Source: Catenuloplanes indicus
GTDB lineage: Bacteria > Actinomycetota > Actinomycetes > Mycobacteriales > Micromonosporaceae
Assembly (NCBI RefSeq): GCF_030813715.1
Contig: NZ_JAUSUZ010000001.1
Span: 6,324,001 to 6,388,000 of the forward strand
Direction: 5' to 3'
DNA: 64,000 nt
In this document: piece by piece, positions 5,673 to 24,386 of the stretch
Layout: each line of letters opens with the position of its first letter
Numbering within the stretch: the first letter of the stretch is position 1
Position numbers and translations under genes: made by a program
Notes under the pieces: model-generated
What the model saw: only the letters and a program-made list of their open reading frames with translations
Told to the model about the DNA's origin: nothing
Database searches by the model: none

Positions 5673-6528
5673 CCCGCCGAAGACGATCGTGCGGCGTGAG
5701 GGCGGCATCTATGCGCTGGAGCGTGCGCTGCAACGCCGCGGGTTCACGCTGGTCGCCGGCGCGGACGAGGCCGGGCGCGGTGCCTGCGCAGGCCCGCTGG
5801 TCGCGGCCGCGGTGGTGCTGCCGACCGGCAAGCGCGGCGAGATCGACGGCCTGACCGACTCGAAGCTGCTGACCGCGGCCGCGCGCGAGCGGATCTACGC
5901 GGAAGTGGTCAAGCGGGCACTCGCGTACTCGGTCGTGGTCATACCGCCCACCGAGGTGGATGCGCGCGGCCTGCATGTGTGTAACCTCGCGGCCATGCGC
6001 CGCGCGCTCGCCTCGCTCGCCGTCCGCCCCGAGTACGTCCTGACCGACGGCTTCGCGGTGGACGGTCTCGGCGTGCCCGGGCTCGCCGTGTGGAAGGGCG
6101 ACCAGGTCGCCGCGTGCGTGGCGGCGGCGAGCGTGCTCGCCAAGGTCACCCGAGACCGGATCATGGTGGAGCTGGACGCCGAGTTCCCGGCCTACGGCTT
6201 CGCCGACCACAAGGGGTACGTGACCGCCGAGCACAACGCGGCACTGGCGCAACATGGCCCGTGCGTGGAGCATCGGTACTCGTACGCGAACGTGGCTGCC
6301 GCCTCCGGCCGCGACGGCAGCCCGCCCCGGGCCCGCCGCCCGGTCTCCGCGGAGTCCGATCGCCCGTCGGTCGTGTCGTCCGGCGGCACCGGTGCCGTGC
6401 TCGCGGGTGCCGAGGCGATGGCGCAAGTCGCCGCGGGCTGGAGTACCGTCGGCGTGGCATCGGAGCAGCAGCCACGACCGCCGACGTGGGTGGGGGAAGA
6501 TGGCCAGATGAAGGGCGGACAACGATGA
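5665..6528 (+). CDS. rnhB: Ribonuclease HII
   Basis: RNase HII, which removes RNA from RNA-DNA hybrids and single ribonucleotides from DNA. The motif GADEAGRGACAGPLVAA holds the first acidic metal ligands; YVLTDGFAV supplies a further aspartate, and the SVLAKVTRDRIM segment is conserved. The catalytic domain ends near residue 215. About 70 residues of low-complexity tail follow, giving 287 in total, longer than the usual 200-240. The GTG start overlaps the Nudix gene, and the stop overlaps the next ATG (ATGA). Confidence 0.95.
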   Translation: MLSPPKTIVRREGGIYALERALQRRGFTLVAGADEAGRGACAGPLVAAAVVLPTGKRGEIDGLTDSKLLTAAARERIYAEVVKRALAYSVVVIPPTEVDARGLHVCNLAAMRRALASLAVRPEYVLTDGFAVDGLGVPGLAVWKGDQVAACVAAASVLAKVTRDRIMVELDAEFPAYGFADHKGYVTAEHNAALAQHGPCVEHRYSYANVAAASGRDGSPPRARRPVSAESDRPSVVSSGGTGAVLAGAEAMAQVAAGWSTVGVASEQQPRPPTWVGEDGQMKGGQR

Positions 6529-6848
6529 GCGCAGAAGATCTCGAGAAGTACGAGACCGAGATGGAGCTGCAGCTCTATCGGGAGTACCGCGACATCGTCC
6601 GCCAGTTCTCCTATGTGGTCGAGACTGAACGGCGCTTCTACCTCGCCAACCACGTCGACCTGCACGTCCGCAACTCGGACGGCGAGGTCTACTTCGAGGT
6701 CGAGATGCAGGACGCCTGGGTCTGGGACATGTACCGGCCGGCCCGCTTCGTCAAGAACGTGCGCGTGATGACCTTCAAGGACGTCAACGTGGAGGAGCTG
6801 GAGAAGCCGGAGATCTCGCTGCCGACGGACACCGGCTTCCCCAGCTGA
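6525..6848 (+). CDS. DUF2469 protein
   Basis: A 107-residue acidic protein of the DUF2469 family. This small conserved actinobacterial protein follows rnhB in many genomes (Rv2901c in M. tuberculosis, from memory). The sequence MSAEDLEKYETEMELQLYRE and the VWDMYRPARFVKNVRVMTFKD block are highly conserved. No catalytic motif is visible and the function is unknown. Its start overlaps the rnhB stop by 4 bases. A strong terminator lies 18 bases downstream and ends this transcription unit. Confidence 0.95.
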   Translation: MSAEDLEKYETEMELQLYREYRDIVRQFSYVVETERRFYLANHVDLHVRNSDGEVYFEVEMQDAWVWDMYRPARFVKNVRVMTFKDVNVEELEKPEISLPTDTGFPS

Positions 6849-6866
6849 CCTCCTTCCCTCCCTCCC

Positions 6867-6907
6867 GGCCCGGAGCCGCGGCGATCGCGCCGCTCTCCGG
6901 GCCTTTT
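6867..6907. terminator. Rho-independent terminator after DUF2469 gene
   Basis: A 9-bp GGCCCGGAG/CTCCGGGCC outer stem encloses a second GCGGCG/CGCCGC stem and is followed by TTTT. It closes the forward rpsP-to-DUF2469 gene set. Confidence 0.85.
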
Positions 6908-7484
6908 CATGTTGTGGGACCGGCAGGCCCGTTCGGTGCGCCACGGGTGCGCCGGTAGGTCTGGTTTCGCAGGTGGTGCGCGTGCGGCGTTTGTCGCTTG
7001 TGGCTATGGGCGCGAGAGGCGTGCCGGGAGTGCGCGACTTCGCGTGGCGGAGCAGCCGGTTCTCGTAGAGAACCGCGCTGTGCCGCGCTGGCGTGCTGTG
7101 CTGTGCCGATCCGCGTGCTGGCCTGCTGTTGCGTACCGCGCCGTTGCGCGCGGCACCGTTCCGGCTTTCGTGCTGGGCGGCGTTCGTGCCGCACCACCAT
7201 GGGTTCGTGCCGCCCGGCATTCTCGACTCGGTCGCTCTCGCGCCGTGCGGTCGAGCGATCCGCACCGCGCCGGCCTTTCGTGCCGCGCCGGCTCCCACAT
7301 CGCATGGTGTTTTTGTGGTGCGGCGGTTTGCGCGTTGCGGGATTCGCGCGGTGCGCTGGTCACCTGCGTGGCGGTGTGCCCTGGGACGGCTGTGGCGTCG
7401 TCGCGGTAGGCGGTGCGGGTCTCGGCGGGGACAGCGCGGCCAGCGTTGCGGTGTGGCCTGCGGAGAGCGGCACGGCGGTGGCGG
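6908..7484. other. Gene-poor stretch at inversion boundary
   Basis: These 577 bases hold no convincing gene. Open frames exist on both strands, but they are Arg/Ala/Cys-rich, lack ribosome binding sites and lack the sharp third-position GC bias of the neighbours. Words such as TCGTGCCGC and GCGTGCTG recur irregularly, giving a scrambled, decayed look. It separates forward DUF2469 from the block of reverse genes, so it could be a rearrangement scar. Confidence 0.5.
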
Positions 7485-9954: not shown

Positions 9955-11670
9955 TCAGGCGCGGGGATGAGCCTGACGGTACGCGGCGCGCAGCCGCTCG
10001 ACCGACACGTGCGTGTAGATCTGCGTGGTCGCCAGCGACGCGTGTCCCAGCAGTTCCTGTACCGAGCGAAGGTCGGCGCCGCCCTCCAGCAGGTGGGTGG
10101 CGGCCGAGTGGCGCAGCCCGTGCGGTGTCGTGTGCGGCAGGTTTTCCGCCCGCGCGTAGGCCGCCACGATCCGGCGCGCGATCGTCGGCTGCAACCGGCC
10201 CCCGCGCGTGCCGAGCAGCAGGGCCCGTCCGCTGCCCGCGGTGGCCAGGACCGGGCGCGCGAGCCGAAGGTAGACGTCGAGTGCCTGTTCGGCCGGGACG
10301 CCGAACGGTACCGAGCGCTCCCGGTTGCCCTTGCCGAGCACCCGGACGAGGCGGCGGGCCCGGTCCAGATCGGAGAGGTCCAGGCCGCACAACTCACTGA
10401 CCCGGATGCCGGTCGCGTAGAGCATCTCCAGCACGAGACGGTCGCGCAGCTCCACGGCAGTGACGGGTCTCCCACCGGCATCGGCACCGGCACCCGGATC
10501 GACGCCCGAGCCGGCGCCCGTCCCGGCTTCGGGGCCGGCCGGCGCCGAGCCGGCGCCGGGCCCCGCCGATCCCGCTGCGCTGCCGGGGCCGGCCGGTTCG
10601 GCAGCGGTACCGGCCTCTGCCGGCCCGGCAGCGGTACCGGCCTCTGCCGGCCCGGCAGCGGTACCGGCCTCTGCCGGTCCGGCTGTGGCGCCGGTTCCGG
10701 GGAAGCCGGATGCGGTTGGTCCTACAGCTCCGGTCACGGCGGCGTGCCCTGCGGTTCCGGGGCCGGCCGCTCCGGCTGCGGTACCGGCCTCTGCGGGTCC
10801 GGGAGTGGCGATTTCCGCCGTGCTCGCTGTGGCGGTTTCCGCCGTGCCACCGGTGATGCCGGTTCCGGAGGATCCGGACGCGGCGGGTCGTGCCGGTCCG
10901 GTTGCGGCGTCGGATCCCGCCGGTGCGGCGGCGCCGAGGCCACCGAGCCTGGCCGTGAAGCCGGGCCCAGCCGGTGCGGCCGCGGTGCCCGCGCCTGTGG
11001 TGCCCGCGCCTGTGGTGCCCGCGTCTGTGGTGCCGGCGTCTGTGGTGCCGGCGTCTGTGGTGCCCGCGTCTGTGGTGCCGGCGTCTGTGGTGCCGGCGTC
11101 TGTGGTGCCGGCGTCTGTGGTGCCGGCGTCTGTGGTGCCGAAGCCTGTGGTTTCGGCTGTGGCGCTGGGTCCTGCCGGTGCGGTGGCGGTGCCGTGCCAG
11201 GGGGTTCCGGGTGCGGCGGGGCCTCTGGTTCTCGATGCGGAGGTGGGGGAAGTGACCAGGATGGCTGCCTGGTCGGCGCGGAGTGCTCCGGGCAGCGTGC
11301 GGTGTGCCCGTGGGCTGGCCAGCTGCGCGCCCACGTCGTGCTCAAGGTGGCCGGCGCGGTGTGCCCAGGAGGTGAGTGCCCGGGCCGAGGCTGCGCGGCG
11401 GGCCATCGAGGTGCGGGCGGCGCCCCGGGTGCGCTGGCCGGCGAGCCAGCTGCGCAGCTCGGCGATGTCCAGGTCGGCGAGGGTGGTGCAGCCGGTGCCG
11501 GCTGCGTGGCCGAGCAGTGAGACCGCGTCGCCGACGTAGGCACGGACCGTGTGGGCGGAGCGGTCCTCGACGGTGGCCAGGTGGTGGGCGAACTCGTCGA
11601 CGACGGTGCGCATGGCGGCCGGCAGGCTCTCGTACACGGCCTGTGTCGCGCGCGTGCGCGTGCTTTCCAT
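9955..11670 (-). CDS. xerC: Tyrosine recombinase XerC with giant repeat linker
   Basis: XerC resolves chromosome dimers at dif with XerD. The N-terminal core-binding domain (residues 1-140) and catalytic domain (405-571) are normal. All catalytic residues are present: Arg423, Lys447, His517, Arg520, His543 and nucleophile Tyr552. Between the domains lies an insertion of about 260 residues (145-405) made of Gly, Ala, Thr, Pro and Ser. It includes ten TT(D/G)AG units and three PAEAGTAAG units. XerC is normally about 300 residues; here it is 571. The ATG at 11670 matches the family start, and an in-frame start 9 codons upstream is possible. It is the third gene from the right in the yraN-comM-dprA-xerC block. 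Confidence 0.93.
10597..10677 (-). repeat. 27-bp tandem repeat inside xerC
   Basis: Three in-frame 27-bp units encode [18 protein letters not shown] and PAEAGTAAE (XerC residues 332-358). Units are nearly identical at DNA level, which indicates recent duplication. Unit loss or gain would keep the frame. Confidence 0.9.
10987..11136 (-). repeat. 15-bp tandem repeat inside xerC
   Basis: Ten 15-bp units encode eight TTDAG and two TTGAG pentapeptides (XerC residues 179-228). Units differ by only one or two bases. The unit is a multiple of three, so slippage changes the linker length without a frameshift. Confidence 0.95.
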
Positions 11671-11734
11671 CCGTCGACGGTCCGCCGCGGAGGGCACGGC
11701 GTCAAATCGGCACGCGTGTGCGGAGCGGCGGTGG

Positions 11735-19099: not shown

Positions 19100-19657
19100 G
19101 TGATCGACGATACGCTCCTCGAGGCCGAGGAAAAGATGGAGCGTGCCGTGGAGCACGCCAAGGACGAGCTGGCTTCCATCCGCACCGGTCGCGCCACACC
19201 GGCGATGTTCTCCCGGATCGTCATCGACTACTACGGCACGCCCACGCCGCTCCCGCAGATGGCCTCCGTCGCCATCCCGGAGCCGCGGATGGCGATCATC
19301 AAGCCGTACGACGCCTCGCAGCTGAGCGCCATGGAGAAGGCCATCCGCGACTCGGACCTCGGGGTCAACCCGTCGAACGAGGGCTCGATGCTGCGCATCC
19401 TGCTGCCGCAGATGACCGAGGAGCGCCGCCGCGAGATGGTCAAGGTCGCCCGTGGCAAGGCCGAGGACGGCAAGGTGGCGGTGCGTAACGTGCGCCGCCG
19501 CGCCAAGGAGGAGCTGGACCGGATCGTCAAGGACGGCGAGGCCGGCGAGGACGACGGTCGCCGCGCCGAGAAGGAGCTGGACGACCTCACCCACCGGTAC
19601 GTGGCCCAGGTTGACGAACTGGTCAAGCACAAGGAAGCCGAGCTCCTCGAGGTCTGA
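19100..19657 (+). CDS. frr: Ribosome recycling factor
   Basis: Ribosome recycling factor, which splits post-termination ribosomes with EF-G. The 185-residue, highly charged three-helix protein contains [34 protein letters not shown] and [25 protein letters not shown] at about 19083-19087 fits the GTG start at 19100. The stop shares one base with the cdsA start (TGATG), which indicates tight coupling. Confidence 0.98.
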
Positions 19658-21168
19658 TGCCGCACCTCGACCCCTACGACGACGCGCGCGACGCACGGCA
19701 GCGGGCGCGGCACGGTGGTGCCGCGCCCGACCCGTACCGCCCGGACCGCGACCCCCGCGGTGACCGGCCAGGCGGCCGGGAGCCGATCGCGCCCGGCTAC
19801 GCGCCGCCCGGCACGGAGGCGGGCGCCACCGCGGAGTTCGTGCTGGACCGCCCGTCCGGCCCACCACCCGCCGTGGTCCCCGGCCGCCCGGGCGCCCCTG
19901 TGCACCCGGGCCCCGACGTGCGCCCGGGTGCCGACACGCGTCTCGGTCCGGACACGTCGGCGCGTTCCGGTCTCGGCGTTCCGGTGCGCCCGGGGGGCGA
20001 TGGCCCGGTGCGCCCGGGGGGCGACGGTCCGGTGCGCCCGGGGGGCGACAGTCGCCTGCGCGCAGGGGCCGAGAGCCACCCGCCTTCCGGAGCCGGTGGC
20101 CCGGTGCGCCCGGGTGCGGGCGGCCCGGTGCCCTCCGGTCCCGGAGCCGGTGTGTCCGGTGGCCGTCCGCACGGCATGCCGCCCGCGGGGCCCGCAGAGA
20201 GCGACGCGCCGGACCTCGGCGATCTGCCCGAGCCGCCGCGCCGCCGGGTCAAGGGGCGCCGCCGCGCGACCTGGACCGGTGCGCCCGCGGCCGGCAACGC
20301 GGTCCGGCAGGCCGCCTACGAGTCCGGTGACGACGAGATCGCGAAGGGGCGCAGCCTGCCGTCGGCCGGCCGTAACCTGCCGGCCGCGATCGGCGTCAGC
20401 CTGGGCCTCGGTGCCGTCGTCGCCGGTTCCCTGTTCTTCTGGCGCGAGGGCTTCCTGCTGCTCATAGCGGCCCTGATCGCGGTCGGCATCTGGGAGATGA
20501 CCCGCGCGCTCGCGGTAGGTGGTGCCCGCGCCCCGCAGATCCCGCTGACCATCGGCGGCGTGCTGATGGCCGGCCTGGCGTGGTACGCCGGCCCGGACGC
20601 GCTCGCGCTCGGACTGCTGGTCACGGTGCTGGCCAGCATGCTGTGGCGGCTCGGCGACGGCCGGGCCGGGTTCCTCCGGGACGCGGCCGCGGCCACGCTG
20701 ATCGCGGTCTACGTGCCGTTCCTCGGCGGCTTCGCGGCGCTGCTCGCCTATCCGGACGACGGCGTGGCCCGTGTGGTGGTAACGGTGGTCGCGGTGGTGC
20801 TCACCGACACCGGCGGGTACGCGGCCGGCGTCTTCCTCGGCAAGCACTACATGGCGCCGTCGATCAGCCCGAAGAAGTCCTGGGAGGGCTTCGCCGGCTC
20901 CGCGCTCGCGTCCGCGCTGGGCAGCGCACTGCTGGTCTATCTGCTGCTCGGCGTGGCACCCTGGTGGGGCGCGCTGTTCGGAATCGGCGTAACGATCTCC
21001 GCGGTGCTCGGTGATCTGGCAGAGTCGATGATCAAGAGGGATCTCGGCATCAAGGACATGAGCAATCTGCTCCCGGGCCACGGCGGCCTGATGGACCGCC
21101 TCGACTCGATCCTGTTCGCGCTGCCGACGGCATTCCTGCTGCTCTCCGTGCTCGCGCCCGGCTCCTGA
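19657..21168 (+). CDS. cdsA: Phosphatidate cytidylyltransferase with long N-terminal extension
   Basis: CdsA makes CDP-diacylglycerol from phosphatidate and CTP in the inner membrane. The C-terminal half (about residues 245-503) has several transmembrane helices and the family signature [20 protein letters not shown] followed by DRLDS. The first 240 residues are a hydrophilic Pro/Gly/Arg-rich extension containing an eight-residue tandem repeat. Most CdsA proteins are 260-300 residues; this one is 503. The ATG start is fixed by overlap with the frr stop. Confidence 0.93.
19984..20055 (+). repeat. 24-bp tandem repeat in cdsA extension
   Basis: Three 24-bp in-frame units encode [16 protein letters not shown] and VRPGGDSR in the predicted disordered N-terminal part of CdsA. 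Confidence 0.9.
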
Positions 21169-22540: not shown

Positions 22541-22697
22541 ACCCTCCGTCTCGCGGGTATGTACGTCTTGGCGTCGCATGGATGGACGCTCTTCACGGCC
22601 GCCGGGCCCGGGGCCGCGATGAACGAGGTTCACTGACGGCCGCGTGTGCGGAGGCGCCCGCCGGCGCCGAGCGAGCGAACCAGGACCAGGAGACACA

Positions 22698-24386
22698 GTG
22701 ACGAGTCAGGGTCAGCGCTTCCGGAGGCGTGCGCTTCGCCGCGGGTACAAGGTGGAGGAGGTCGACTCCTTCCTCGACCGCGTGGAGGCCACGCTGGCGG
22801 GCGAGCAGAGCGGCCCGCCGGTCACCGCTCAGGAGGTGCACGACGTGGTCTTCCGCGTGCGCTTCGGCGGGTACGACGAATGGCAGGTCGACCTGCACCT
22901 GGACCGGGTCGAGCGGCAGCTCGCCGAGCTCGACGAGCGCGGCGGCGCCCGTGGGCCCGAGCGCGTCCCGGCCGGCGCGGATCGGATGGGCCCGCCCGAC
23001 CGGATGAGCGGCGGCCCCGGCGCGCACAGCGGCCCCGGCGGCGGTTTCGGGCCAGGCGGCTTCGACGACCCCGGCGGCTTCGACGGCCCCGGTGGTTTCG
23101 ACGGCCCCGGTAGTTTCGACGGCCCTGGTGGTTTCGACGACGGCTTCGATGAGCCCCGCACCGGCGGTTTCGACGCCCCCGGCCGCCCGGACGGTCCCGG
23201 CTTCGGCCCGCCGGACCGGATGGGTCCTCCGGATCGCATGGGCCCCCCGGACCGGATGGGCCCGCCCGACCGGATGGGCCCCCCGGACCGCATGGGCCCG
23301 CCCGACCGGATGGGCCCGCCGGACCGGATGGGCCCGCCCGGGCGCGTCCCGGCCGGTGCCGGCCGCTTCGACGACGGCCCCTCGTTCGGCGGCTTCGACG
23401 AGCCGCGCACCGGCGGTTTCGGCGGCCCGCCACAGCGCGATCCCCGCGATCCCCGCGATCCCCGCGACCGCGGTGGCTTCGACGAGCCGCGCACCGGTGG
23501 TTTCGGCGGCCCGCCCCCGCGGGACCCCCGCGACCGCGGCGGCTTCGGTGAGGACCCGCGCACCGGCGGCTTCGACGTGCCGCCGCGCGACGACCCGCGC
23601 ACCGGCGGCTTCGACCTTCCGCCCCGCGGCGGACCGCAGGGTCCCGGCCCCGGCGCCCCGCAGGGCCCCGGTGGCATGGGCCCAGGCGGCATGGGCCCAG
23701 GCGGCCCCGGTGGCATGGGCCCGGGCGGCCCCGGCCCGCGCGGACCTCAGGCCCCCGGCGGCATGGGCCCCGGCGGTTACGACCAGCACCCGTACGACGA
23801 CCCGCGCGACCGCGGCGGCTTCGACGCACCCAGCGGCGGCTTCCCCGGCTTCGAGCCCGGCAGGCACGGCAAGATGGACATGACCGCGGAGATCCGCCTG
23901 CCCGAGCTGGAGCGGCGTCCCCGCACCCAGCCGCAGTCCGGCCCGCCCGGGATGGGCGGGGGCCCGGGTGGCCCACCCCCCGGCCCCGGTGGCCCGCCCC
24001 CCGGCCGTGGCGGTCCACCGCCCGGCGCGTTCGGCGGCCCGCCCATCCCGCCACCCGGCGGCGGTTACGACGACGGTTACGGCGACGGCCCGGGCGGCTT
24101 CGGCGGCCCGCCGCCGATGGGCCCCGGTGGCCCCGGCAACGACCTGCAGCGCGTGGATCACCTGCGCCGCACGTTCCAGCCGCGGCGGTTCGGCAGCGGT
24201 TACGACCCGGACCAGGTGGACCGGCTGTTCGAGGGCATCCTCACGGCGATGTCCGGCCGCGGCCCGATGCCGGTGAACGAGAACGACCTGGACACGCTGC
24301 AGTTCGGCCTGGTGCCCGGCGGCTACTTCGAGGCCGAGGTGGACGCCGCGCTCAAGGAGGTCAAGGACATCCTGCTGGGCCACTGA
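22698..24386 (+). CDS. DivIVA-motif protein with long Gly/Pro-rich centre
   Basis: A 562-residue protein. The N-terminal 75 residues contain two DivIVA-like motifs (RGYKVEEVDSFLDRVEATL and FGGYDEWQVDLHLDRV), and the last 80 contain two more (GSGYDPDQVDRLFEGIL and GGYFEAEVDAALKEV). DivIVA-type motifs in actinobacteria mark polar-growth and cell-wall scaffold proteins. The middle (about 80-480) is Gly/Pro/Asp/Arg-rich and probably disordered. It has seven GPPDRM repeats and several (E/D)PRTGGF copies. The GTG at 22698 follows a weak AGGAG. The exact role is unknown. Confidence 0.8.
   Translation: MTSQGQRFRRRALRRGYKVEEVDSFLDRVEATLAGEQSGPPVTAQEVHDVVFRVRFGGYDEWQVDLHLDRVERQLAELDERGGARGPERVPAGADRMGPPDRMSGGPGAHSGPGGGFGPGGFDDPGGFDGPGGFDGPGSFDGPGGFDDGFDEPRTGGFDAPGRPDGPGFGPPDRMGPPDRMGPPDRMGPPDRMGPPDRMGPPDRMGPPDRMGPPGRVPAGAGRFDDGPSFGGFDEPRTGGFGGPPQRDPRDPRDPRDRGGFDEPRTGGFGGPPPRDPRDRGGFGEDPRTGGFDVPPRDDPRTGGFDLPPRGGPQGPGPGAPQGPGGMGPGGMGPGGPGGMGPGGPGPRGPQAPGGMGPGGYDQHPYDDPRDRGGFDAPSGGFPGFEPGRHGKMDMTAEIRLPELERRPRTQPQSGPPGMGGGPGGPPPGPGGPPPGRGGPPPGAFGGPPIPPPGGGYDDGYGDGPGGFGGPPPMGPGGPGNDLQRVDHLRRTFQPRRFGSGYDPDQVDRLFEGILTAMSGRGPMPVNENDLDTLQFGLVPGGYFEAEVDAALKEVKDILLGH
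23205..23348 (+). repeat. 18-bp tandem repeat (GPPDRM)
   Basis: Seven 18-bp in-frame units encode GPPDRM, and an eighth degenerate unit encodes GPPGRV (residues 170-217 of the DivIVA-motif protein). Neighbouring units differ mainly at third positions. Confidence 0.95.

Follow-up and report, generated by a model that had tools for sequence, protein, structure and literature searches.

The gene considered here lies on the reverse strand of a 64-kb stretch of DNA (the window, meaning the whole sequence analysed), with dprA and a yifB-type gene upstream and genes for a class-V aminotransferase and an M23 peptidase downstream. In the ORF list of the window it is open across 580 codons from a GTG; an alternative ATG start at 11670, the one used by an earlier note on this DNA, gives 571 codons. 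A 517-codon open frame antisense to it (9967-11520, + strand) is most likely a by-product of high G+C. Both Pfam domains score above their gathering cut-offs (PF00589, matching residues 416-567, at 137.3 against 27.1, and PF02899 at 45.0 against 22.3), which places the protein among the tyrosine recombinases. R432, K456, H526, R529, H552 and Y561, which we take to be the catalytic set of that family (the R-K-H-R-H/W-Y motif), are all present and invariant among 46 aligned sequences, in line with the intact active site described in the earlier note. The top NCBIfam match is the XerC model TIGR02224 at 284.6 bits, ahead of 243.3 for the XerD model and under the curated cut-off of 335.15, so the XerC label is a putative one, given by best match and not by the equivalog rule. 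The short-loop protein of another species of the genus (G003) likewise scores below that cut-off (296.5), and among 14 control genomes the model was matched in 11 and its cut-off passed in only two. The window genome also encodes a separate XerD paralogue (P0002) that exceeds the TIGR02225 cut-off (331.4 versus 329.6) and carries a dif-like site, the two features by which we defined a two-recombinase system.

Table 1. Features of the xerC-type gene, in window coordinates; residues are numbered on the 580-codon frame.
Feature	Position	Strand	Basis
xerC-type tyrosine recombinase gene (putative)	9955..11697	-	ORF; PF02899 and PF00589 above cut-offs; best NCBIfam match TIGR02224
N-terminal SAM-like core-binding domain (residues 33-116)	11350..11601	-	PF02899, 1.3e-11; helices in structure model
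Predicted true interdomain linker (about residues 115-140), ordinary length	11278..11355	-	Model; no indel relative to G003 XerC
Predicted first catalytic-domain helix (residues 141-149), probable equivalent of XerD helix E	11251..11277	-	Model; alignment to 1a0p
Expanded E-F loop (residues 150-414, 265 aa), predicted disordered	10456..11250	-	Loop boundaries; low pLDDT
15-bp array, GTT(D/G)A units	10984..11151	-	Tandem Repeats Finder, 11.2 copies, 95% matches, score 273
27-bp array, AGPAEAGTA units	10592..10683	-	Tandem Repeats Finder, 3.4 copies, 95%
Remainder of catalytic domain (residues 416-567) with R432, K456, H526, R529, H552, Y561	9997..10452	-	Pfam; alignment

The protein is interrupted by a 265-residue insert rich in Ala, Gly, Thr and Pro, which occupies residues 150-414 (141-405 in the 571-residue numbering; 145-405 in the earlier note). 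Codon reading of the two arrays found by Tandem Repeats Finder gives ten GTT(D/G)A units and three AGPAEAGTA units, reproducing the ten 15-bp and three 27-bp units reported earlier, and both units are in frame. The 15-bp array is not due to chance, because 500 first-order Markov sequences modelled on the loop reached a repeat score of 92 at most, as against the 273 observed. Exact repeat is a minor part of the loop, most of which lies outside it. Two further genes of the window also contain in-frame arrays, so xerC is not alone here in forming them: a DivIVA-domain protein (22644-24386, + strand) has a long Gly/Pro/Asp-rich stretch with an 18-bp array coding PPDRMG (7.4 copies), and a CTP-transferase-family (CdsA-like) protein (19657-21168, + strand) has a 24-bp array (VRPGGDG) in its N-terminal extension.

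We used structure prediction and alignment to E. coli XerD to place the insert in the fold. An AlphaFold2 model built from 46 sequences is confident in the core, whereas the mean pLDDT of the loop is 33-52 per ten-residue block from residue 161 to 410, mostly under 50. The insert is preceded by a confident helix at 141-149 and followed by another at 414-429, with a further, weak helix (151-157) at its start; upstream, helix 95-114 and a short helix at 122-126 are followed by none until 141. In the phmmer alignment, the XerD chain (1a0p) is matched as far as residue 123, and the match resumes at residue 129 beyond the insert. Model and alignment together place the insert inside the catalytic domain, as a loop joining its first two helices, which would correspond to XerD helices E and F; the equation of helix 141-149 with helix E is our own. 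The insert described in the earlier note is thus real, but its placement between the two domains is ruled out by the model and the XerD alignment. Since the insert appears to lie inside the catalytic domain, the DNA clamp should stay coupled, and the loosening of its two domains implied in the earlier note is not supported; in E. coli XerD this loop is on the face opposite the DNA (PMC5052618, the part available). The top PDB match in Foldseek was 5dcf (E 7e-10), a structure of the C-domain of XerD with FtsK gamma, the TM-scores of the Foldseek matches being low because of the long loop. By analogy, the loop would sit on the face equivalent to the FtsK gamma dock of XerD, away from DNA. Long loops of this kind split the family-model matches to the proteins that carry them.

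Over all ten species pairs in the genus, long-loop pairs included, dN/dS is 0.13-0.27 for the N-domain and 0.08-0.19 for the C-domain, with 0.08-0.18 in pairs involving the window gene, showing purifying selection on both folded parts of XerC. The open frame, the catalytic set and dN/dS led us to reject a pseudogene. A looser dif pattern gave one best site in each of the five genus genomes, with one mismatch in four of them and two in G001, where the right arm differs at one base; the site of the window genome is at G000:C1:283569-283590. These best sites stand above the background of 3-mismatch sites, G003 having another 2-mismatch site as well. The left arm, presumably the XerC side as in E. 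coli, is identical in all five species (GTTCGATAA). With a stricter pattern, built from the Frankia alni dif sequence (given in PMC3025954, the part available) and allowing two mismatches, we found no site in the 13 Micromonosporaceae genomes searched. Further tyrosine recombinase genes lie about 0.4 kb and 4 kb from the dif-like site of the window genome (L432:2767-3753, + strand, and 6064-7149, - strand), and by coordinates recombinase matches occur within about 5 kb of the site in all five genus genomes; they may belong to a local recombinase system or to a mobile element at dif.

Within the genus the E-F loop measures 265, 171, 19, 17 and 9 residues in the five species. The XerCs of G001, G002 and G003 have 19, 9 and 17 residues where the window protein has 265, at 80-91% identity to it over the matched N- and C-terminal pieces; that of G004 has a low-complexity loop of 171 residues at the same place, shorter than that of the window and of differing sequence. 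At the DNA level, the short loop of G003 contains 20 nt that match the 27-bp unit of the window at 95% identity, and the window and G004 loops have in common a 12-nt stretch near the start and a 56-nt piece at 84%. The earlier note had proposed comparing relatives and reasoned that equal loop lengths without DNA-level repeat identity would argue against recent, variable expansion; close relatives instead combine large length variation with such identity. Because short-loop G003 groups with long-loop G004 (FastTree support 92), the ancestor may already have had a longer loop that was then shortened in G003. Two expansions are also possible.

To place this case more widely, 300 Micromonosporaceae genomes were searched with the XerC query (E of 1e-45 or better), and 254 gave a match. 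The loop was measured in 252 of these, in 102 from fetched sequence and in 150 from match spans, values that may include other small indels; G043 (no sequence) and G089 (no C-terminal match at 1e-36, for which a contig end is our guess) were left out. The median loop is 27 residues, with at least 29 in 115 genomes, at least 50 in 64 and at least 100 in 11, and the 265 residues of the window are the maximum. The minimum is 8 in fetched sequences, the lower span-derived values being rough. Loops of at least 29 residues occur in 96 of the 102 fetched genes, in differing sequences; those of different genera look unrelated, and by eye we saw no motif shared among the 102. In 12 of the 102, all from one genus (g29), the loop that follows helix H is long as well (20-88 residues instead of 7), and a model of one such protein with both loops (G235) has low confidence across both inserts.

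A set of 136 loci included 129 from outside the family, taken from all 70 matching genomes at order level and from 59 of the 92 matching at class level outside the order, the other 33 being mostly lower-scoring; for two of the 136 loci no loop length was obtained, and a third gave a negative value without meaning. Most loops here are 7-12 residues, and nine of the 129 reach at least 50 (163, 111, 91, 87, 80, 72, 69, 62 and 61). The earlier statement that XerC is otherwise near 300 residues therefore does not describe the Micromonosporaceae, in which 115 of 252 have a loop of at least 29 residues against the 7-12 of most outside loci. Among 80 records picked by similarity, the loop exceeds that of G003 by 59 residues in Microtetraspora fusca, by 22 in a Frankia and by 73 and 45 in two Micromonospora. 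In a FastTree tree built without the loop (265 rows, 275 columns), the 52 loops of at least 60 residues need 36 changes and the 13 of at least 100 need 13, counts that do not separate gain from loss. The XerC E-F loop is a recurrent hot spot that has expanded many times in high-GC actinomycetes. Among the titles and abstract openings listed for actinobacterial XerC and in-frame repeats we found no report of this loop, most subscription papers lying outside that coverage. In nine genera (g11, g13, g14, g16, g17, g19, g30, g39 and g42) the sampled genomes, most of them near complete, lack a close match to XerC or XerD and have at most more distant recombinases scoring about 111-151 bits, and in another family, f33, no close match was found in 7 of 7 sampled genomes; XerCD may have been lost in the genera concerned.

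Tandem Repeats Finder located arrays within the loop in 51 of the 102 fetched genes. The arrays cover 27% of the loop bases, compared with 1.5% of bases in the rest of the genes, and their best period is most often 15 bp (15 of the 51 genes). Multiples of three predominate among the periods both in the loop (91 of 102 arrays) and outside it (29 of 36), so they do not set the loop apart. In the 96 loops of at least 29 residues, A, G, P, T, S, D, E, Q and N together make up 86% in the coding frame; the other five frames give 47-72%, and base composition predicts 69%. Arginine is at 6.8% versus 19% expected. This bias of the coding frame suggests that the loop is kept disorder-prone though its sequence is free. 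Some selection on composition, for example against hydrophobic residues and arginine, may be responsible, and the bias could in part reflect founder effects of the repeat units.

XerD provides a control from the same genomes. In a first set of 25 XerDs (five of the genus and 20 of g29), all had 6-7 residues at the E-F loop and 8 at the second site. In a wider sample, with a match in 107 of 145 genomes, whole-span differences were -10 to +9 in 101 of 102 measured, and of 12 fetched outliers or partial matches one (G005, L420) has about 46 extra residues at the E-F loop, so we withdraw the view, drawn from the first set, that XerD never expands. Other XerDs have inserts elsewhere: a smaller one at the second site in G030, about 80 residues in the N-domain in G027 (L423), and about 15-25 residues further on in the catalytic domain in G013 and G050 (L421, L422). 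Across 101 paired genomes, a loop of at least 29 residues is found in 24 XerCs but in one XerD (Fisher p 4e-7), most of the XerD loops in this comparison being judged from whole match spans rather than read singly. The XerC share is lower here than the 115 of 252 above because the paired sample is spread over genera.

The surface concerned has a known role in E. coli, where FtsK gamma binds XerD through helices E and H, on the side facing away from the DNA, and contacts Glu119, Gln123, Ile127, Glu184, Tyr187, Trp188 and His257 (PMC5052618, the part available). By our own numbering, counted back from Arg148, Ile127 would fall within the loop that matches the insert. In the XerDs examined here E119, Q123 and I127 are mostly not conserved and loop length alone is kept; because of this, docking of FtsK at the same surface is something we infer. 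Plausibly, by analogy with E. coli, the XerD loop has kept its length because FtsK docks there, and the contrast between the two proteins suggests that one partner surface is fixed by the activator while the other drifts.

The most reasonable explanation, to which we assign a probability of a little under 0.8, is a tolerated expansion of a XerC surface loop on the face that is constrained in XerD. The protein would be a working XerC whose E-F loop has grown to 265 residues via in-frame duplication of short units, by slippage or by recombination between repeats, and the predicted disordered chain would exit and re-enter the fold between neighbouring helices. The face matching the FtsK gamma dock would be little constrained in XerC, so that loop length could drift up and down and expand many times, whereas the XerD loop would mostly hold its length, plausibly through FtsK docking. 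Slippage as the mutation, docking as the reason that XerD is spared, near-neutrality and a working enzyme are the parts of this account that we infer. Of the two options left by the earlier note, we favour tolerated expansion over a change in the control of dimer resolution, the predicted dif arm on the XerC side being the same in 5 of 5 species; a regulatory role of loop length is possible but unsupported. Its observation is thus confirmed and its interpretation partly supported.

The alternative that survives best, though we consider it unlikely, is that loop length is selected and that slippage adjusts XerC activity or dimer-resolution control. In its favour, the insert comes after helix E; in XerD the corresponding helix makes up the FtsK gamma dock, which overlies the cleft for the partner's C-terminal helix (PMC5052618, the part available), so that a bulky chain at that place might influence control of the partner. 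Most units also keep the frame, and the residue make-up is constrained; yet sister species with an identical predicted XerC-side dif arm differ tenfold in length (17 versus 171 residues), loops seem unrelated across genera and many relatives do without. Slightly less likely still is a length-variable disordered shield or gate that would occupy the XerC surface equivalent to the FtsK dock and exclude FtsK or bias the partner-helix cleft, repeat number setting XerC/XerD asymmetry, in parallel in several actinomycete families. A conserved binding segment for a partner protein, its length incidental, would account for the composition constraint and for recurrence at one site, but is improbable given that no motif common to the 102 loops was seen by eye and that even within the genus only short pieces are in common. 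We give very little credence to a decaying gene in which the insert marks lost XerC function, which the genera lacking close XerC and XerD matches and the f33 genomes might suggest but which is at odds with the open frame, the intact catalytic residues, the dN/dS of 0.08-0.18 and the dif-like site, and just as little to a repeat copy number inflated in assembly, since near-identical 15-bp units are open to mis-assembly of their exact number but the loop is mostly not exact repeat and the same site is expanded in most fetched genes with differing sequences.

Tolerated expansion therefore stands as our preferred reading, and the window XerC is the longest case seen of a growth-prone surface loop in actinomycete XerC. 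The analysis maps a site of repeated growth in a recombinase whose conservation is otherwise tight, XerD of the same genome serving as a paired control, and an insertion-tolerant site of this kind could help to build tagged or tethered recombinases. The best sequence and fold match in the PDB is E. coli XerD (1a0p, 5dcf), which has the two-domain tyrosine recombinase plan and catalytic set in common with the window protein but has about 7 residues at the E-F loop, in contrast to the predicted disordered loop of 265. XerH of Helicobacter pylori (5jk0) is a Xer-group tyrosine recombinase with a cyclic C-terminal swap, like the XerC/XerD group, and belongs to a single-recombinase system; the available part of its description mentions no such loop (PMC5241119). 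Close parallels exist in other actinomycete XerCs (G235 with 144 residues, G333 with 163, Microtetraspora fusca and the Frankia), in which a low-complexity expansion occupies the same loop, differing in sequence and shorter than that of the window.
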